A stretch of 64,000 bases of DNA from Thermomicrobium sp. 4228-Ro. GTDB taxonomy: Bacteria; Chloroflexota; Chloroflexia; Thermomicrobiales; Thermomicrobiaceae. Shown here one piece after another: positions 14,085 to 61,141 of this stretch (the stretch's first letter is position 1; the number at the start of each line of letters is the position of its first letter). Under the pieces are notes generated by a model. The model saw only the letters and a list, made by a program, of their open reading frames with translations. It had not been told where the DNA came from and did no database searches. The stretch is from the NCBI RefSeq assembly GCF_026241205.1, contig NZ_JAPFQM010000001.1, positions 930,001-994,000 of the forward strand, in the 5' to 3' direction. A program made the translations under genes and the position numbers.

Positions 14085-15548
14085 ATGACCGAACGGCGTC
14101 CGACGAGTCTGGAGACCGAGCTCGACCGTTCCGTCCTCGAGCGGTTACCACCCGCCTTGCGGGATATCAACGACCGTCTGGCGCGCGTATTCACCGCAGC
14201 CGGGCACGAGCTGTATCTCGTCGGCGGTGTGGTGCGCGACCTGTTGCTCGGGCGCCCGGTTACCGATCTCGACTACACGACTTCGGCGCATCCTGAAGAG
14301 ACGAAACGGCTTGGTCAAGAAGCTGGAGCCGACAGTCTCTACACGGTCGGCGAAGCGTTCGGGACGATCGGTCTGGTCTTCGCCGGGGTGACGGTCGAGA
14401 TCACCACCTACCGGACCGAGTGGTATCCGACAGCCGACCGTCGTCCGAGCGTCCGCTTCGGCGAGAGCCTCCTCGAGGATCTGGCGCGCCGCGACTTCAC
14501 GGTGAACGCCATGGCCGTCCACGCAGTGACCGGCGACCTGGTCGACCCCTTCGGGGGACTCCGGGACCTGGAACGCCGCCTCATCCGGGCAGTCGGTGAC
14601 CCACGTGAGCGGTTCGGTGAGGACCCGCTGCGGATGTTGCGCGCCGCTCGCTTCGCGGCCCAGCTGGGCTTCGACGTCGAGGCCGAAACGCGTGCCGCGA
14701 TGCGCGAGCTGGCCGCCGAACTCCAGCGCGTGAGCGTCGAGCGGATCGCGATGGAACTCAACCGGCTGCTGATCGCGCCGGAACCCGATCGGGGGCTGGA
14801 GCTCTTGCGCGAGACTGGGCTGCTCGCCTTCGTGCTCCCCGAACTCGTCCCGCTCGCCGAGGACGTAACCGACCGGCGGCACAAGGACATCTGGCGGCAC
14901 ACGCTCCAGGTGGTCCGGCAGAGCCCACCGCGGCTCGCGGTACGCTGGGCTGCCCTCCTGCACGATGCCGCCAAGCCGATGACGCGGACGATCGACGAGC
15001 ACGGCGAGGTGCACTTCTTCGGCCACGAGGTGAAAGGGGCAGAACTCGCACGCAAGGCGCTCCGCCGCCTGCGGCAAGAGAAAGCGCTGACCGAGCGCGT
15101 CGCCCGGCTGGTCGAACTGCACCTGCGTCCGGCAGCCTACGACGAGACGTGGACCGATTCGGCTGTCCGCCGCTTGATGGTCGAAGCGGGCGACCTCCTC
15201 GAGGACCTCCTCGATCTGGTCGCGGCCGACGTGACGAGCGCGCGTGCCTGGCGACGCCGCGAGGCCCGCGAGCGGATGGAACGGCTCCGTGCGCATATCC
15301 GCCGGCTGGAAGAGGAAGCGGCGCTCGCTCAGATCAAGAGCCCGCTGGACGGCAACGAGCTGATGGCGATCTTCGGCCTACCGCCAGGCCGCTGGATCGC
15401 CGAAGTCAAGAACTATCTCCGCGACCTGGTGATCGAAGGCCAGCTTGCCCCGGGAGACAAGGAGACAGCACGCCTTCTGGCCGAGCGCTGGGTCGCCGAG
15501 CATCCGGAGGTCATCGCTGCGGCGCGAGAACGCCCTGGCCGACGTTGA
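14085..15548 (+). CDS. cca: CCA-adding tRNA nucleotidyltransferase with HD domain
   Basis: The 487-residue protein has the class II nucleotidyltransferase signature [20 protein letters not shown] (44-63: GG motif, DxD metal site), [10 protein letters not shown] and the [15 protein letters not shown] motif. An HD hydrolase domain ([18 protein letters not shown]) comes next, and a C-terminal [18 protein letters not shown] motif. It adds or repairs the 3' CCA of tRNAs; the HD domain may give phosphohydrolase activity. The tRNA-Leu gene in this window lacks an encoded CCA, consistent with need for this enzyme. ATG 14085 is preferred to GTG 14067 since a TACAAT box lies just upstream. Its last 38 bp overlap the convergent chemoreceptor gene. 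Confidence 0.93.
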
Positions 15549-17334
15549 CTCCGGCCGTCTGGTCCGTCGAACCTGTGTTGTCGAGAGGGCGAAAGGCCTG
15601 GGCGACACGGGTAAGTTGTCCAGCGGCATCGGCAAGCGTTTCCGCCACATCTCGGACACTCTCGGTTTCAGCCTGGAGCTGTGCGATGAGCGTGCCGAGA
15701 CTCTCGGCCGCCGCGCTCGTATCACGGCTCGCTGCCGCCACCTCATGGACTTGTCGTGTGACCCGCTCCAGGGTGACCGCGACTTCTTCCGTCGCTGCGG
15801 TGTGACTTTCAATAACCCGGGTGACGCGCTCGAGCTCGGCAACCAGTTCGTCTTTGGCACGCGTCATCGTCGTGCTCGCATGGCCGACCGCTTGCATACG
15901 CTCACCGATCTCCCGCATGCCGGTCATCAAGCGCTGGAGTGCCATCTCGGCAGAACCGGCGAGCGTCACACCTTCCTCCACCTCCTGCACCCCAGACGTG
16001 GTCACGGCAACGACCTCGTCCAGCTTTGTCAAGACGTCATCGACAAGCCCGCGAATCTCCTGGGTCGTCGTACTGGAACGTTCAGCGAGCTTGCGCACTT
16101 CTTCGGCGACGACGGCGAAACCCTTTCCAGCTTCCCCAGCTCGCGCTGCCTCGATCGCGGCGTTCAGGGCCAAAAGATTGGTCTGGCGAGCGATGTCGTC
16201 GACTGCTTCGACCATTTGCGTGATCCGCCGCGAGAGGGTCGCCATCTCGGTCACCCTCGTGCCGATCTGCTGCATAGCCTCGCCGGATCGGCGGAGCGAG
16301 CTGATCGCTCGCCGGACTGTCTCGGAGCCTGACGCTGCCTCTTCGCTGTTCCGCTGAGTCGCGCACGCTCCTTCGTGGGCAGTCGTCGCGACTGCCTGGA
16401 TGGCCGCCGCGAGCGTCTGCGCGAGTTCGGTCAAGCGCTGTACCGCGCGCTGCTGCTCCGCTGCGCCGCCAGCGATAGCAGCGACGGCACGCTGCACCTC
16501 GTCGATCGCCCGCGTCGCTTGTTCGAGCAGTTCGCTCTGCCGGACAGAGCCGCCAGCGACGACCTGAACGGCCTGTGCCGCCTCGGTCGCAGCCTGAGCG
16601 AGGTCCTGGCTCACGGCATCGAGCCGTGCACTGGCACTGCCGGCGAGTGCCGTGACCAGCTGCAAACCGCGGATAGCCGAAAGTACCCCTTCTTTGAGTT
16701 CCCGGTATCGGTCGGAGAGGTCGTCCTCCGGTCGCTCCGGCACGACGGCAGCGAGATCGAAACCGACCGAGTCGAGGTACTCGAAGAAGAAAGCATCGAC
16801 GACCGCCTGCTGGTCGAGATTGAAAACCTTGGTGAGTGCACGCTCAACCCGCCACACGCGCCACGGCTGGAGAGGATACCTGCGGCGGAGTTCAGCACGC
16901 ACGAAGTCGAGATAGCGTCCGTAACTGCCCAGATACCACTTCATCGGCAAGTCGATCACGTTGTGGCGCACGCCGATGCGCAGGCGCTGTCGAAAGTAGG
17001 CGAGATCGTAGCCCTGCTGGGCAGCTCGGAAGATCTCGCGAAAGTAGGCTGCTTGTGACTGCTCGAGCCGGCGACGCACTTCGGCGAGCGGCATCCCGTG
17101 CGCCTGCGCATAGCGCTCGAAGAAGCGGCGAGTCGGCTCGAAGGCGAACTGAAAATCGTAGAAGCGCTTGGCTATGGAGTCCGCCACCCGCTCGGCCCAA
17201 GGCAGCAGGCGCGCGAGTTCGCGACGCTCTCGGTCAGTGAGGCCGAGGAAAGAGAGTCTCAGGCGGAGTCCCTCTTCCGTCAGTCGCATCGTCTGAGCGA
17301 GCGAATCGGCCCGCTGATCCTGTGGTGTGCGCAT
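15511..17334 (-). CDS. Globin-coupled methyl-accepting chemotaxis protein (HemAT-like)
   Basis: ATG 17334 follows a GGAGGAGG site. Residues 20-190 form a protoglobin-type sensor: [14 protein letters not shown], and [20 protein letters not shown] with His124 as likely proximal haem ligand. A helical linker and a methyl-accepting signalling domain follow; the hairpin tip (379-420) contains [20 protein letters not shown] and [18 protein letters not shown]. No transmembrane segment exists, so it is a soluble oxygen (or other gas) receptor acting on a CheA-CheW complex. HemAT proteins mediate aerotaxis. No other chemotaxis gene is in the window. The 3' end overlaps cca by 38 bp. Confidence 0.92.
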
Positions 17335-17559: not shown

Positions 17560-18627
17560 GTGCAGGAAGAGTTTTCGCTCACCAGAACGATCGACGAGTG
17601 GCTCGCCGGTCGTCCCGCTGCAACGCGTCGCGCGTATCGCCACGACGTTCAAGAGTTCCTGGCTGCGCTCGGAGGAGACCTGGGTCGTTTGGACGAGCCG
17701 GCGATCCGTCGCTGGCTGGCGACGTTCGATCACCGGCGTCTCGCCCAGGCGACCGCCCGGCGCAAGCTGGCCGCTGTCCGGTCGTTTCTCCGCTTTCTCC
17801 ATCAACGCGGACTCGTCGCTCACGATCTCACTCGCGCCGTGCCGACAACGCTGCAGGTCACCGAGTCTCCCGTACCGATCGTGCGTTCGACCGAACGCGG
17901 GCGGCTGCTCGCCGCCTCGCTCCGCGTCGCCGATCCACGCCTGCAGCTCCTGCTCTGGCTCGCCGGCTGCGGCTGCCCACTTCCGGTCGTCGCTCGTCTC
18001 CGCTGGCGCGATCTCCATCCCTACGATGGGGAAGGGATCGCCGTCTGCTCGGACGAGCAGAATCGGCTACTCCGGTGTGTCATTCCAGGCATGATCTGGC
18101 GCTCGCTCCAGCCGTTGCTCGCCAAAGAGCACCCTGACGCTCCCGTATTCCAGAGCAGCGACGGTAGCGCGGCGCGGCCGGAAGATCTGGCCGAGGCGAT
18201 CGGCTGGGTGCTCGACGAGACGGCAGACAGTCGCCTCGGTGCGGAACGCGATCGCGACCGACTGCTCACGCTGACCGAGATCGCGCGCCGGCTCGGCCTA
18301 CCAGAAACGACGGTTCGGTACTACCGCGACCGGTTCGCTCCCTACCTCCCGGCTGTCGGCAGCGGCCGTGCGCGCCGCTATCCACAGCAGACCGTCGAGC
18401 GGTTGCGCTGGATCGTCGAACAGCTTCGGGCTGGCGCCTCGCCGCACGAGATCGAGGCACAGCTGCGCTCCGCCCCGCCTGACCTCGCGACACACGCCCC
18501 TGCTGCTGACGCGCAATTGACCGATTCTGTCGGCCGCTTGAGCCAGCGGATTCGAGAACTGACTGAAAGCTTGCAGCGACTGTCCCAGATTCTCAGCGAG
18601 CTGCGTTCCATTGCACCGGACAAGTGA
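17560..18627 (+). CDS. Catalytically dead tyrosine-recombinase-like protein fused to a MerR-type DNA-binding domain
   Basis: GTG 17560 follows GAGGGAGA. Residues 8-100 form a phage-integrase SAM-like core-binding domain (RRAYRHDVQEFLAAL, ARRKLAAVRSFLRFLHQRGL). Residues 110-215 resemble the start of the recombinase catalytic fold (LRWRDL), but the first catalytic Arg of the usual TGLRxSE box is absent (AGCGCPLPVVARLRW). The strand that should carry the Lys reads SDEQNRLLRCVIPG, and there is no HxxR box or nucleophilic Tyr. Instead a MerR-like winged helix begins (about 228-300: LTLTEIARRLGLPETTVRYYRDRFAPYL), followed by a coiled coil to the end. I infer a domesticated integrase acting as a DNA-binding regulator. 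The target is unknown. Confidence 0.72.
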   Translation: MQEEFSLTRTIDEWLAGRPAATRRAYRHDVQEFLAALGGDLGRLDEPAIRRWLATFDHRRLAQATARRKLAAVRSFLRFLHQRGLVAHDLTRAVPTTLQVTESPVPIVRSTERGRLLAASLRVADPRLQLLLWLAGCGCPLPVVARLRWRDLHPYDGEGIAVCSDEQNRLLRCVIPGMIWRSLQPLLAKEHPDAPVFQSSDGSAARPEDLAEAIGWVLDETADSRLGAERDRDRLLTLTEIARRLGLPETTVRYYRDRFAPYLPAVGSGRARRYPQQTVERLRWIVEQLRAGASPHEIEAQLRSAPPDLATHAPAADAQLTDSVGRLSQRIRELTESLQRLSQILSELRSIAPDK

Positions 18628-18713: not shown

Positions 18714-19271
18714 TCAGTCGGACACCGCCCGGGCCGCCCAGATGGAGCCAGGGAAGCGCTCGCGTAGCCTAGCCCAGACCCGATCGAGTTCGGTGCGCGA
18801 CCGCGTCACCAGGTACACCGCAACACCCCACCAGTAGTGTGCCTCGGGTGCCCAAGGACTCACCGGGTCCCGCATCGCGACGTGCCCGAACAGGCGCAAA
18901 GCATCGGTGAAGCGTGCCCAGTGGAGGGCGACGTGCCCTTCACCCAGATCCAGCAGATCGAGGAACAGCTCCGGCGGCAGGAAGTCCGGGCTCTGGTAGC
19001 GCACGGCACCGCGCCGGTCGAGGAAGAGCACAGTCGGCGTCCAGATGACCCCGAGCGGGCGCAGCCACTCCCGCGGATCCCGGAACAGGTCGAGCGAGAG
19101 CGGAACGAAGCGCTGCTCGACCGCTGCGCGGACACGCTCGTCGCTGAAGGTCACGGCTTCCAGCCGTGCGCACCCGCGTCAGCCGTCTTTCCAGACATAG
19201 GTCAGCACGGGCTTGCGCTCGTGTTGCGCGCGTTCGAGAGCATCCGGCAGCGAACGACGCCAGGCGATCAT
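18714..19271 (-). CDS. Thioredoxin-like protein, probable selenoprotein (TGA = Sec31)
   Basis: ATG 19271 has a strong GGAGGAGG site five nt upstream. The frame reads MIAWRRSLPDALERAQHERK PVLTYVWKDG, then TGA (19179-19181), then RGCARLEAVTFSDERV and on to 18714. Reading the TGA as residue 31 gives 185 residues of a thioredoxin-7-like fold with a U-R-G-C redox motif exactly where CxxC is expected. The conserved helix, V-x-LDLF strand and WTPTVLFLDRRG cis-Pro segment follow, then a TPR-like tail. A 6-bp hairpin with loop UGGAA starts 11 nt after the TGA, matching bacterial SECIS geometry. It probably reduces or scavenges thiol or peroxide substrates in the cytosol. The alternatives are a nonsense mutation or a truncated GTG start at 19154, which would discard the redox motif. 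It lies 75 bp after the EAL gene, same strand. Confidence 0.75.
19152..19168 (-). promoter_or_regulatory. SECIS-like hairpin after the in-frame TGA
   Basis: On the coding strand, CACGGC pairs perfectly with GCCGUG around loop UGGAA (17 nt in all), starting at nt 11 after UGA. A lower stem GGGU/ACCU can extend it, leaving a GCG bulge. The loop begins 16 nt after UGA, with a G at its second position. This fits the published bacterial SECIS rules (apical loop 16-37 nt after UGA, G among the first two loop bases). The alternative is chance structure in GC-rich DNA. Confidence 0.68.
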
Positions 19272-19346
19272 GCGGGCCTCCTCCAGTCTATGCGCAGTAT
19301 CGTCTCCTTCAGCAGAACAGGCAACTGAAGCAGCGACCTGTCGCTT

Positions 19347-23806: not shown

Positions 23807-24685
23807 ATGCGGATCGGGCTCGTCTTCCCGCAGACCGAGATCGGTAGCGACCCGGCGGTCATCCGCGAATATGCTCAGGTAGCCGAGGGGCTCGGCTACA
23901 CCCACCTCCTCACCTACGAACACGTCGTCGGTGTCGACCTCGCCCGCTACCCGGGCTGGCGGGGACCCTACCACGCTGGCCACCAGTTCCACGAGCCGTT
24001 CGTCCTCTTCGGTTACCTCGCGGCGGTGACGGAGCGGATCGAGCTGGTCACCGGCGTCGTCATCCTGCCGCAGCGGCAGACGGTGCTGGCAGCCAAACAG
24101 GCAGCCGAGGTGGACGTCCTCTCCGGCGGGCGGCTGCGGCTCGGGGTCGGTGTCGGTTGGAACGAGGCGGAGTACGTCGCGCTCGGGATGGACTTCCACA
24201 CGCGCGGTCGGCGCGAGGAGGAGCAGATCGAGGTGCTGCGCCTGCTCTGGACGCAGCCGGTGGTGACTTACGAGGGGCGCTGGCACCGCCTGCCAGCCGT
24301 CGGGATCAACCCGCTGCCGGTGCAGCGCCCGATCCCGATCTGGCTGGGCGGCATGTCGGAGGCGGCACGCCGCCGGGCGGCCCGGCTGGCCGACGGCTGG
24401 ATGCCGCAGTGGCGGCCGACCGCCGAGCTGCGGGCGATGGTCGAGGAGCTGCGCGAGTGGGTGGCGGCAGCCGGCCGCGATCCAGCGTCGTTCGGGATCG
24501 AGGGGCGGCTCACGCTCGCCCAGGTGCCGACGTCCGAATGGGAAAAAGACGTCCAGGCCTGGCGCGGCCTCGGTGCGACGCACCTGTGTATCAACACGAT
24601 GGGGATGGGACTGGCCGGGCCGCGCGAGCACATCCGCCTGATCCGCGAGCTGGCCGGCGTCTTCGGCGTGGAGCCGGATGCGTGA
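23807..24685 (+). CDS. LLM-class F420-dependent oxidoreductase
   Basis: ATG 23807 lies six nt after AAAGGGG; the longer upstream frame is repeat DNA. The 292-residue protein is a luciferase-like TIM barrel: MRIGLVFPQTEIG, YAQVAEGLGYTHLLTYEHV, LVTGVVILPQRQTVLAAKQAAEVDVLSGGRLRLGVGVGWN (split over strands 3-4) and PIPIWLGGMSEAARRRAARLADGW. These are the family's cofactor-binding landmarks. F420 use is typical of this subgroup, but FMN use cannot be excluded, and the substrate is unknown. It shares promoter and leader with the gene at 29418 and is followed 70 bp later by tupA, perhaps co-transcribed. Confidence 0.9.
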   Translation: MRIGLVFPQTEIGSDPAVIREYAQVAEGLGYTHLLTYEHVVGVDLARYPGWRGPYHAGHQFHEPFVLFGYLAAVTERIELVTGVVILPQRQTVLAAKQAAEVDVLSGGRLRLGVGVGWNEAEYVALGMDFHTRGRREEEQIEVLRLLWTQPVVTYEGRWHRLPAVGINPLPVQRPIPIWLGGMSEAARRRAARLADGWMPQWRPTAELRAMVEELREWVAAAGRDPASFGIEGRLTLAQVPTSEWEKDVQAWRGLGATHLCINTMGMGLAGPREHIRLIRELAGVFGVEPDA

Positions 24686-24755
24686 GCGAGGCGCCGCTCG
24701 CGCAGCCGCCGCGGGCCGAGGCGGTGGGAAGCACCTGGGCGTGAGGAGAAGCGCA

Positions 24756-25688
24756 GTGCGAGCTGGGTGTTGGTGGGTACTCCTGGTAGCCATCGTGCTC
24801 GCCGGCTGTGCGGGCACCCCGGCCTCGACGGCGACCGGGCCGGCGGCGAGCGCGCCCGTCGTCCAGCCGACCGCGGCGGCCACGGCGACCGCAGAACGGC
24901 TGCCGACCGCAGTACCGGGCCAGGAGACGGTGTTCCTGGCGACGACGACGAGCGTGCAGGACAGCGGGCTCCTCGACGCGCTCCTGCCGCGCTTCCAGGA
25001 GGAGACCGGCTACGTGGTGCGGGTCACCGCGGTCGGGACGGGGCAGGCGCTGGAGCTCGGGCGTCGCGGCGAAGCGGACGTCCTGCTCGTCCATGCGCCG
25101 GATGCCGAGGAGCGCTTCATGGCCGAAGGGAACGGGAAGCTCCGCTGGCTGGTTGCGACCAATGATTTCGTGGTCGTCGGGCCGGCGGACGACCCGGCTG
25201 GTGTGCGCGGCACGACGTCGGTGCTGGCATGCCTGCAGCGGATCGCCGCCGCGGGCGCGACCTGGGTCAGCCGGGACGACCGCTCGGGGACCGACCTCCT
25301 GGAGAAGCGGTTGTGGAAGGAAGCGGGGATCGACCCGTCCGGGCAGCCCTGGTACGTCACCTCCGGCCAGGGGATGGGGCGGACGCTCGTCCTCACCGAC
25401 CAGAAGCGGGCCTACACGCTGAGCGATCGCTCGACCTATCTGGCCTTTCGGTCCAGGCTCCAGCTCGAGGTCCTGTGTGCCGGTGACCCGAAGCTGGTCA
25501 ACCAGTATCACGTCATCACGGTCAATCCGGAGAAGTTCCCGCACGTCAACGCGGCTGGCGCCGAGGCGTTCGCGCGCTTCCTGGTCTCACCGGAGGCACA
25601 GCAGATCATCGCGCGCTTCGGTGCTGACCGGTACGGTGAGCCGCTGTTCCGACCGGCGATCGAGCCGAGGGCGACACCGGCGCCCTGA
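24756..25688 (+). CDS. tupA: Tungstate ABC transporter substrate-binding lipoprotein
   Basis: GTG 24756 is preferred since AGGAGA lies just upstream and it gives a clean lipoprotein signal (WWVLLVAIVLAGC). The mature 310-residue precursor has the TupA landmarks TTTSVQDSGLLDALLPRF, AVGTGQALELG, EADVLLVHAPDAEE and NDFVVVGP, then YTLSDRSTYLAF. It binds tungstate (possibly molybdate) outside the membrane. The permease follows 12 bp later. Tungstate supply would serve tungsten or molybdenum pterin enzymes, which are not in this window. Confidence 0.92.
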   Translation: MRAGCWWVLLVAIVLAGCAGTPASTATGPAASAPVVQPTAAATATAERLPTAVPGQETVFLATTTSVQDSGLLDALLPRFQEETGYVVRVTAVGTGQALELGRRGEADVLLVHAPDAEERFMAEGNGKLRWLVATNDFVVVGPADDPAGVRGTTSVLACLQRIAAAGATWVSRDDRSGTDLLEKRLWKEAGIDPSGQPWYVTSGQGMGRTLVLTDQKRAYTLSDRSTYLAFRSRLQLEVLCAGDPKLVNQYHVITVNPEKFPHVNAAGAEAFARFLVSPEAQQIIARFGADRYGEPLFRPAIEPRATPAP

Positions 25689-25700
25689 GCGAGGAGCGCG

Positions 25701-26393
25701 ATGGAACTCTTCTGGGACGGGCTGGTCGGTGCAGTCCAGCTGATCCTGCGCGGGGACCCGCAGCTGCGCGAGGTCGTTTGGCGGACGCTGGTCGTCTCCG
25801 GCTGCGCGACACTGCTGGCCGTGGTCGCTGGGGTGCCGCTCGGTGTGGCGCTGGCGGTCGGGCGCTTTCCGGGCCGGGAAGCGCTCAGCCTGGCGGTGAA
25901 CACCGGTATGGGCTTGCCACCCGTGCTGGTCGGGCTGGTGGTCACGATCTTGCTCTGGCGGAGCGGGCCCTTCGGCTTTCTGGGGCTGCTCTACACTCCG
26001 GCCGCGATGATACTCGCCCAGTGGATCGTCGCCTGGCCGATCGCGGCCGGTGTCACGCGCACTGCGATCGAGGTGCTCGACCAGGAGCTGGTGGACGCGC
26101 TGCGGGTCTTCGGTGCCGGGCCGTTCCGGACCGGCTGGGAGCTGGTGCGGGCGGCGTTGCCACAGGTGGGATTCGCCGCAGCCGCCGCCTTCGGGCGGGC
26201 CATTTCAGAGGTCGGCGCCTCGATCATGGTCGGTGGGAACATCCTGGGACAGACGCGGATCCTGACGACGGCGATCGTTTTGGAGACGAACCGCGGCGAG
26301 TTCGCGCTGGCGCTCGCGCTCGGTTTCGTCCTGCTCGCGCTCGCGCTGGTGGTCAATATCGGGGCGCGGGCGCTCGTGCTCCCGGCACGCTGA
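25701..26393 (+). CDS. tupB: Tungstate ABC transporter permease
   Basis: A 230-residue integral membrane protein with about five helices and the permease EAA-type loop ELVDALRVFGAGPFRTGWEL. The N-terminal pattern, VNTGMGLPPVLVGLVV, and the segment GRAISEVGASIMVGGNI are typical of TupB. It forms the channel for tungstate bound by the product upstream. No ATPase (TupC) follows; downstream is 780 bp without a protein gene. The ATPase must be encoded elsewhere or shared. Confidence 0.92.
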   Translation: MELFWDGLVGAVQLILRGDPQLREVVWRTLVVSGCATLLAVVAGVPLGVALAVGRFPGREALSLAVNTGMGLPPVLVGLVVTILLWRSGPFGFLGLLYTPAAMILAQWIVAWPIAAGVTRTAIEVLDQELVDALRVFGAGPFRTGWELVRAALPQVGFAAAAAFGRAISEVGASIMVGGNILGQTRILTTAIVLETNRGEFALALALGFVLLALALVVNIGARALVLPAR

Positions 26394-56769: not shown

Positions 56770-57580
56770 GCGGCCCGCGCCCGTTCCGTCGGGGTCACGC
56801 GGGCGTGACCCGCTGAGCCCCCCCTCGCACCCCCGCCTCCCTCTCCCGCGCGGTGCGGGAGGGGGTGCCCGAACGTCCCGGAGGGGTCAGGCGTGCCTGA
56901 CCCGTCCGGCCCGGGAGGGCCCGGGAACGGACGTTCGGGCGCGGCACGCGTCGCCCCTACACGGAAAAACGGGCGACGCACGCGTCGCCCCTACTACGGA
57001 CGTTCGGGCGCGGCCAATCGTCGACGGTCGCCGGCCCATCGCCGACTCCCACCCCGAGATCACGGTCGTCCCCGTAGGGGTCGGGCGTGCCGACCCGTCC
57101 GGCCCGACAGGGCCGGGAACGTGGCCACCGTCCCGCGCCTGACGGCGCGGACGGGCGACGCACGCGTCGCCCCTACAGTGTTACAGGGCGCGGGACGGTG
57201 TGCCGACCGTGAACGATCGTCGGTCGCGGTCGCCGTCTTAACCGGCCGTTTTCCCGTAGGGGTCAGGCGTGCCTGACCCAGCCGGCCCGACAGGGCCGGG
57301 GAACGTGGCCACCGTGCCGCGCCTGACGGCGCGGACGGGCGACGCACGCGTCGCCCCTACAGGGTTACAGGGCGGGGACGGTGTGCCGACCGTGAACGAT
57401 CGTCGGTCGCGGTCGCCGTCGGTACCCGCCGTTTTCCCCGTAGGGGTCAGGCGTGCCTGACCCGCTGAGCCCCCCTCACCCCCCGACCCCCTCTCCCGCG
57501 GTGTGCGGGAGAGGGGGTGCCGAGCGCCAGCGCGGCGGGGGTGAGGGGTGTCCAGCCGGGCGACGCACGCGTCGCCCCTA
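56770..57580. repeat. Repeat block splitting the phage remnant
   Basis: No gene. It begins with a GGGTCACGCGGGCGTGACCC module (56794-56813) and a CTCTCCCGCGCGGTGCGGGA hairpin. Several GGGCGACGCACGCGTCGCCC copies follow (for example 56972-56991, 57153-57172, 57337-57356 and 57559-57578), with GGGTCAGGCGTGCCTGACCC in between. The last copy supplies the stop codon of the portal gene. Confidence 0.8.
57074..57439 (+). repeat. Tandem duplication of a 182-184 bp repeat unit
   Basis: Two near-identical units begin GTAGGGGTC at 57074 and 57256; a third start is at 57440. Each contains the GGGCGACGCACGCGTCGCCC module and the unique run GTGTGCCGACCGTGAACGAT. A few substitutions separate them. Confidence 0.85.
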
Positions 57581-59353: not shown

Positions 59354-61141
59354 GTGGCTGAACGGTTTCGCAGTCGGGCACGCCTCGTCCGGTAGTTGGT
59401 CGCGCTCGCGCTCGTGGTGAGCGGCCTGGCCGGGCTCGCCGTCACCCCAGCCAGCGCGGCGTCGACGATCACCGTCGGACCGGATGTCCGGAACGGGTAC
59501 GACACGAACGATGGCTGCTCGCTCGAGGAGGCGTTCGTCCTGATCCTCGTCCTCCAGGTAGGTGGTTCGGAGACGAACGATTGCGGGAGCACGAGCAGTC
59601 TTTCCTGGCCGGTCACGGTCTCGCTCGCGCCGAATTACACCTATACGATTAGCGACGTGGACGAGCTCCCCTGGAGCCGGACCGACACTGCGTTCCCCGA
59701 GTTGAGCGGGAGTTCGACCGACGTCACCATCCAGGGCAATGGGGCGACGATCGAACGGGCGTCCTCGGCCACGGACGACTTCCGCTTCTTCTACGTGTCG
59801 AACGGCGCGCGGCTCGCGCTGAGCGGCCTCACCCTGGTGAACGGTGACGTGCGCTTAGAGCTAACGTCGCGCGGTGGGGCTATCTACGCGGACGATGCCC
59901 GACTCTCGATCGCGAGCAGCACGTTCAGCGACAACTTCGCCGACGAGGGCGGGGCGGTCTACACCGAGTTCGGCACCCAACTCTCGATCGCCAACAGCAC
60001 GTTCAGCAACAACTACGCCGGCGAGGGCGGGGCGGTCTACGCCGGGTCCGGCACCCAACTCTCGATCGCCAACAGCACGTTCAGCCGGAACGTTGCGAAC
60101 AACGGGGGCTGGGGTGGAGCGATCTACACCTACGGGCAGCTGTCCATCGTGGACAGCACCTTTGCCGACAACTGGGCCGACGAGGGCGGTGCGATCTACG
60201 TCAGCGCTTCCGCCCCGCAGGTCACGATTTCCGGGAGCACCTTCACCGGCAACACTGCCCTCGAGGGCGGGGCCGTCTACGCGGCGAGCGACTTCTCTGT
60301 CACCAACACGACCTTCAGCGGGAACAGCACGACGAGTCCGGACAGCGGCAGCGCCATCTATCTGGCCAACAACGCGACCGCTGACCTCGCCTTCGTCACC
60401 TTCGCCGACCACACCGGTTCTGCAACGCTCGCGGTCGGGTACAGTGAAGCCGGTACGTTCCGCCTCAAGAACGTCGTCCTGGCCGACCCGGACGTGGACG
60501 AATGCGAGAACGACCCCGCTCTCACCGTCCAGACCGCCGGTGTCGTCCTGGCCGACGACAGCTCCTGCTCCGGCGCGACGGTCGTCCCCACCCTCCGCTC
60601 GACGCTCGGGCCGCTCGCCAGTAACGGCGGGCCGACACAGACGCACGCGCTCCTTCCTTCCTCCCCGGCCATCGGTGCCGTCCCGAGCGGTGCCTGCACC
60701 GACTGGGACGGCAACGCCGTCACGAGCGACCAGCGCGGCCAGCCGCGCCCCAACCCCAGCGGTTCCCCCTGCGACGCCGGCGCCTACGAGAGCGACCTGG
60801 GCCCGCCGAGCGGCGGCATCGACCTCCTGGTGACCGGCCTCACTGTCCGCAAGCAAGGACGCCTCACCTGCGCGACGGCCACCGTCAAGAACCAGGGGAG
60901 CGCCCCCGCGCCCAGCACCAGCCTCCGCCTGGCCCTCTCCTTCACCGCGAGCGGCGGCACCCCGGTGGCCACCAGCAGCGTCCCCGCCCTCGGCCCGGGC
61001 AGCACGGCGACGCTCACCCGCTGCCTGAGCCTGCCCAACGACACCCGCCAGTGGCTGGTCGCCACCGTCGATCCCTCCAACACGGTCGCCGAGACGGACG
61101 AGACGAACAATACCCGCGCTGTCCGCTTCCGCTTCCGCTGA
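59354..61141 (+). CDS. Secreted right-handed beta-helix protein with CARDB domain; amber codon in the signal peptide
   Basis: The best ribosome binding site (AAGGAGGG) serves GTG 59354, which reads MAERFRSRARLVR, then TAG at 59393-59395, then LVALALVVSGLAGLAVTPAS A. Together they make a perfect signal peptide (charged start, hydrophobic core, ASA cleavage). Translation could restart at TTG 59396 directly after the stop, giving 582 residues without the charged part. The mature part has polymorphic-membrane-protein-like beta-helix repeats (GGAIYADD, LSIANSTFSNN, EGGAVYAGSG) and a C-terminal CARDB-like domain (LLVTGLTVRKQGRLTCATAT). It is an extracellular adhesin-like or surface protein. The stop may be a mutation, an error or a translational control. 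Confidence 0.75.

Follow-up and report, generated by a model that had tools for sequence, protein, structure and literature searches.

A TGA codon in the middle of a thioredoxin-like gene of Thermomicrobium sp. 4228-Ro is almost certainly translated as an active-site selenocysteine, as judged from the codons of its homologs and the sel genes of the genome. The window, the whole 64,000-nucleotide stretch of DNA analysed here, corresponds to C1:930001-994000 of the 3.07-Mb genome (G000). Within it the gene occupies 18714–19271 on the minus strand, running from an ATG at 19271 to a stop TGA at 18716–18714, a frame of 185 residues whose single internal TGA (19181–19179) is codon 31. The best explanation, in which we place very high confidence, is that the gene product is a cytosolic selenoprotein of the thioredoxin fold, into which selenocysteine would be inserted at UGA31 through SelB and a hairpin in the message. 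The most interesting part of the finding is the hairpin itself, a SECIS that appears to have been relocated within the family.

The gene, its frame and its homologs

The initial annotation had described a strongly preceded ATG opening a frame interrupted by TGA at codon 31, in the position of the first cysteine of a thioredoxin motif, and closer analysis agrees with this description throughout. A Shine-Dalgarno-like GGAGGAGG, read from the sequence at approximately 19276–19283 on the minus strand, lies just 5' of the start codon (19271–19269), and the genus mates likewise have a GGAGG-like purine stretch 5' of the same ATG. The read-through product begins MIAWRRSLPDALERAQHERKPVLTYVWKDG-U-RGCARLEAVTF..., and the context of the TGA (19179–19181, minus strand) is WKDG-TGA-RGCARLE, in which U31 would be the first residue of a U-R-G-C active-site motif and the TGC at 19170–19172 encodes C34, the predicted resolving cysteine. 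The frame remains open after the internal TGA to the terminal one. As had also been foreseen for ordinary gene callers, a standard ORF finder gives only a truncated 146-aa ORF from GTG 19154 (18714–19154, minus strand) that contains neither U31 nor C34; a mid-gene 'stop' codon that would code for selenocysteine leaves gene finders with just a fragment that has no active site. The locus gave no matches when scanned for promoters, terminators and Rfam families. Among named records with the gene, Thermomicrobium sp. SKW109 and bacterium HR28 are the closest.

Searching 150 genomes from the class and 400 from the phylum gave 47 clear homologs. At the position of codon 31, TGA is found in 37 of the 47 and TGC or TGT in the other 10, with no other codon occurring, and the TGA homologs are spread over several families of the phylum (Chloroflexota). 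An alignment of homologs had been expected to show cysteine at this position, and only Sec (TGA) or Cys occurs there; UGA in frame at a site occupied by UGA or Cys in homologs is the pattern by which bacterial selenoproteins are recognized. The second active-site cysteine, C34, is invariant in the homolog alignment (A3), as are C/U31, W77 and P79.

When compared with Pfam, the read-through product matches both Thioredoxin_7 (PF13899, 40.2 bits) and Thioredoxin_2 (PF13098, 40.1 bits) above the cut-off of 27, and it has the UxxC motif and the proline of the cis-Pro loop. The original description as a thioredoxin-7-like protein therefore stands; its TPR-like tail is a more tentative matter, suggested by the TPR/YbgF/CpoB-type chains that the family profile matches over the C-terminal third. 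An AlphaFold model built from three sequences had a mean pLDDT of 50 and was too poor to use. No signal peptide is evident in the 185-aa protein, which is probably cytosolic.

Two hairpins downstream of the UGA

Beginning 11 nt after the TGA is a SECIS-like hairpin, H1 (CACGGC-UGGAA-GCCGUG, 17 nt, 19152–19168 on the minus strand). Its 6-bp stem and UGGAA loop had been pointed out in the initial annotation and are found at 19168–19152, with covariation in seven homologs. The bacterial SECIS consensus has a loop of 3 to 9 nt, with G in the first two loop positions, 16 to 37 nt from the UGA, and the published bSECIS criteria place the hairpin immediately downstream of the UGA with an MFE of at most -7.5 kcal/mol (PMC13188914). 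With a loop starting 16 nt after the UGA, a loop G, a folding energy of -9.6 kcal/mol and covariation, H1 falls within these limits, in line with the earlier proposal of bacterial SECIS spacing and a loop-G rule. Its energy is not exceptional (z -1.16 against shuffles; p 0.18 against codon-preserving randomisation), and folding energy was set aside as proof of a SECIS, not being significant for the window sequence alone. A possible lower stem, GGGU/ACCU, had also been suggested; it forms in this sequence but lacks conservation (68% paired, zero covariation) and was rejected as part of the SECIS.

What raises H1 above chance is the TGA in 36 other homologs, the compensatory changes among its pairs and the identity of codons 36–39. 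The hairpin pairs 6/6 in all seven sequences, four from the genus and three from a second family, f3 (100% paired), with two covarying pairs, a number drawn from seven sequences and few independent events. Within the genus there is a compensatory change from A-U to G-C, and further compensatory changes are found in f3. Codons 36–39, in the stem-loop, are identical across the four genus members, compared with 22% of amino-acid-conserved codons overall. H1 is thus supported by covariation, in this genus and one other family only (seven homologs).

Most Sec homologs are unable to form H1, for which 48% of cells are paired, not above the level of slid controls. An alternative hairpin, H2 (CUGGAUGC-CGUGAC-GUAUCCAG; region 19142–19163, minus strand), overlaps H1 about 7 nt further downstream and is degenerate here, with 3/8 pairs. 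Its loop, CGUGAC, lies 23 nt after the UGA and fits the bacterial SECIS consensus (PMC13188914) as well. The two hairpins are mutually exclusive because the 5' arm of H2 contains the H1 loop and the H2 loop lies within the 3' arm of H1. Over 21 distinct sequences H2 is 94% paired, and in two pairs both partners have changed in a compensatory way, from G-C to C-G and from A-U to G-C. By local folding energy, 28 of the 37 Sec forms have H2 and nine have H1; one or the other is present at -5 kcal/mol or better in all 37, and the same folding test finds neither in any of the 10 Cys forms. In one distant family of four homologs (L082–L085, in G303, G324, G366 and G390), the motif is U-x-A-C, not U-x-G-C, and the C-terminal region differs; the TGA and H2 are kept in all of them.

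It could be argued that the protein is a selenoprotein but that the SECIS of this genus is a bulged remnant of H2, or a larger combined fold, and not H1. H2 is after all the family norm (28/37), and genus mates form weak folds in the H2 region, the best at -6.1 kcal/mol. However, H2 keeps only 3–4 of its 8 pairs within the genus whereas H1 keeps 6/6 in all four members, the change from A-U to G-C is compensatory in H1, and the loop distance of H1 is near that of the genome's own FdhA element. We therefore give this alternative a small chance and take H1 as the candidate SECIS of the genus.

When the hairpin columns are left out of the gene tree, which has no outgroup root, the H1 and H2 labels need three changes. 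Holding all nine H1 forms together was rejected (AU p 7e-5), and holding together the genus and f3 alone was not (AU p 0.10). Since homologs carry different hairpins and the Cys forms carry neither, it seems that on two or more occasions a bacterial SECIS was built anew in a different register, and at least two changes from an ancestral H2 to H1 are the most economical reading of the unrooted tree. We consider it likely, as one joint reading of these sequences, that within a single homologous family an ancestral H2 (loop +23) was replaced by H1 (loop +16) at least twice; that the replacement passed through sequences forming both, as G013 can do and as the damaged H2 retained in f3 suggests; that the protein was bent to fit the RNA, residue 40 varying between V, A (G007 and G011) and D (f3) while the pairing of H1 is kept; and that the SelB of this lineage would tolerate both loop positions. 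The use of each hairpin by SelB we infer from sequence.

Recoding, selection and the genome

Compared with three genus mates, dN/dS is 0.12–0.14 for the whole frame, 0.06–0.20 upstream of the TGA and 0.11–0.15 downstream; purifying selection is seen on both sides of the TGA, codons 1–30 included. This selection bears on the suggestion that translation yields just the 146-aa product from GTG 19154, the UGA being the true stop of a short upstream peptide. That ORF does exist, and GTG occurs in many Sec homologs, which is explained by the position of V40 within the conserved hairpin region. Such a product would have neither U31, C34 nor the first strand of the fold, the GTG site is GAT in f3 and GCG in two genus mates, and the Cys homologs are full length. 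Together with the selection on codons 1–30, these observations make it very improbable, and the full-length selenoprotein is the reading retained here. A pseudogene or sequencing error, with TGA having recently replaced a Cys codon in a dead or misread frame, could be entertained from one genome alone, which shows just a stop inside an ORF, but is refuted to the point of having practically no chance by 36 further homologs in other assemblies that share this TGA and by a dN/dS of about 0.14 over the whole frame.

The machinery needed for recoding was looked for in the same genome, as the initial annotation had advised, and selA, selB, selC and selD are all present, the full set by which a bacterial selenoprotein genome is judged. 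The matches are 548 bits for selA, 359 bits for selB, 357 bits for selD, which has an in-frame TGA of its own, and 73 bits for a tRNA-Sec with anticodon TCA. Of the outcomes named beforehand as refuting the initial reading, neither of the two concerning sel genes and homologs, a genome devoid of sel genes or homologs with neither Cys nor Sec at this codon, was seen. A UGA read as another residue, for example as Trp by suppression, has nothing specific in its favour and is scarcely credible, given that UGA also terminates this gene, that Cys is the sole alternative in homologs and that the sel genes are complete.

Other genes of the genome also contain in-frame TGA codons. In selD (G000 C1:1677655-1678590, L022), the codon lies within a CAG-U-AGK motif, and SelD is therefore probably itself a selenoprotein here. 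Two FdhA-like (formate-dehydrogenase-like) genes (G000 C6:255453-258323, L088, and C1:1201153-1203945, L089) are further selenoproteins of this genome, both with an in-frame TGA followed by a SECIS-like hairpin; in one of them it is UCCCC-GGUCU-GGGGA, whose loop begins some 18 nt past the UGA. Because of the tRNA-Sec, selA, selB and selD, together with the TGA-containing selD and FdhA-like genes, selenocysteine insertion is expected to be active in this organism. In the window, 24678–26393 (plus strand) encodes a PBP_like_2 binding protein and an ABC permease, possibly for tungstate/molybdate uptake, which would make it relevant to the formate dehydrogenases.

Across the genomes tested, selB is found in 25/29 with the Sec form versus 3/10 with the Cys form (Fisher p 0.002), and the four Sec-form genomes without it are 70–81% complete. 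Seven of the 10 Cys forms make up one clade of the gene tree, in none of whose genomes selB was found, so the correlation mainly reflects one evolutionary (loss) event. A genus mate, G015 (99% complete, selB present), is without the gene, which is therefore dispensable, not essential. A plasmid search returned only distant thioredoxins, in Leptospira.

There is no conserved operon, with zero consistently adjacent genes outside the genus, and operon context was accordingly rejected as a clue to substrate. Neighbours within the genus include a protoglobin-MCP, a PolyA_pol/HD protein, an integrase-SAM/MerR protein and a GGDEF/EAL protein. The gene at 17560–18627 (plus strand) adjoins the selenoprotein gene in all four genus members having the latter; its product has a phage-integrase N-terminal SAM-like domain and a MerR HTH domain, with no match to a catalytic recombinase domain. 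At 15511–17334 (minus strand), a protoglobin domain is fused to a methyl-accepting chemotaxis signalling domain, an arrangement of the gas-sensor type. Elsewhere in the window, there are 2.2 repeats of a 184-bp unit at 57069–57463 and, at 59898–60085, a 78-bp (26-codon) tandem repeat resembling a segment of a repeat-rich protein.

Known relatives and proposed role

UxxC thioredoxin-fold selenoproteins are well known and catalogued, and a thiol:disulfide interchange selenoprotein (PF13098, UxxC; representative WP_011366075.1) is listed among them as a high-confidence prediction (PMC13188914). The present family is like it in having a Thioredoxin_2/Thioredoxin_7-type fold with Sec first in CxxC, an agreement of Pfam domain and motif only. 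It differs in its TPR-like C-terminal region and UxGC...L(D/E)AVT signature, the catalogued family having been compared by description only. The best NCBIfam match of the thioredoxin domain is TsoB (NF045694), at 41 bits over its C-terminal DsbD-like end only. TsoB is a 572-position rhodanese/DsbD fusion with a cut-off of 805 bits, listed with two Sec; at 185 aa, the present protein lies outside it in score and in the rhodanese fusion. The VPGUxxT (NF041383) and Trx7/PDZ (NF041199) selenoproteins give weak matches to the Trx7-type domain, far below cut-off, and have other Sec motifs (VPGU, CxxU) and architecture. For instance, Trx_VPGUxxT_two (NF041383) scores 22.6 bits against a required 275, and the motif here is DGUxGC in place of VPGU. 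No selenoprotein model of NCBIfam covers this family above cut-off. By profile, the best solved relatives of the thioredoxin domain are the PDB entry 2kuc, a putative disulphide isomerase (E 6e-17), and the DsbD C-terminal domain (E 1e-14); both are Cys-containing, and the match excludes the TPR-like tail. Set against the bacterial SECIS consensus (PMC13188914), the family is distinguished by two mutually exclusive positions. A search of the literature on selenocysteine and selenoproteins in Thermomicrobium, Thermomicrobia and Sphaerobacter found no paper on this family. The protein is of a known kind and appears to form a new and uncatalogued subfamily, which the PF13098 UxxC catalogue family could include by domain and motif.

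By analogy with other proteins of the thioredoxin fold, the likely role is that of a cytosolic selenol/thiol-disulfide oxidoreductase. SelB carrying Sec-tRNASec would bind the hairpin (loop U-GG-A-A, 16 nt after the UGA) at the ribosome, and Sec would then be inserted at UGA31. U31-x-G-C34 would serve as a selenol/thiol-disulfide redox centre within a thioredoxin fold that has a cis-proline loop (WTP79T); U31 may act as the attacking nucleophile and C34 as the resolving thiol. The centre is probably reduced by a thioredoxin reductase-type system, and the TPR-like helices at the C-terminus are probably a partner-binding region. The SECIS would not be fixed within the family, H2 being present in most homologs and this genus having apparently lost H2 and taken up the upstream H1 instead.

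The finding adds a thioredoxin-like selenoprotein subfamily in several Chloroflexota families, including the hot-spring Thermomicrobium, where annotation without recoding gives a fragment missing its active site. One clade, in which the change from Sec to Cys coincides with the disappearance of selB, provides a clear example from evolution. The H1 and H2 homologs would show how a protein sequence can be shaped by an RNA signal inside its own gene, and the two SECIS registers offer natural paired designs for measuring the allowed distance of the SelB-binding loop from the UGA.
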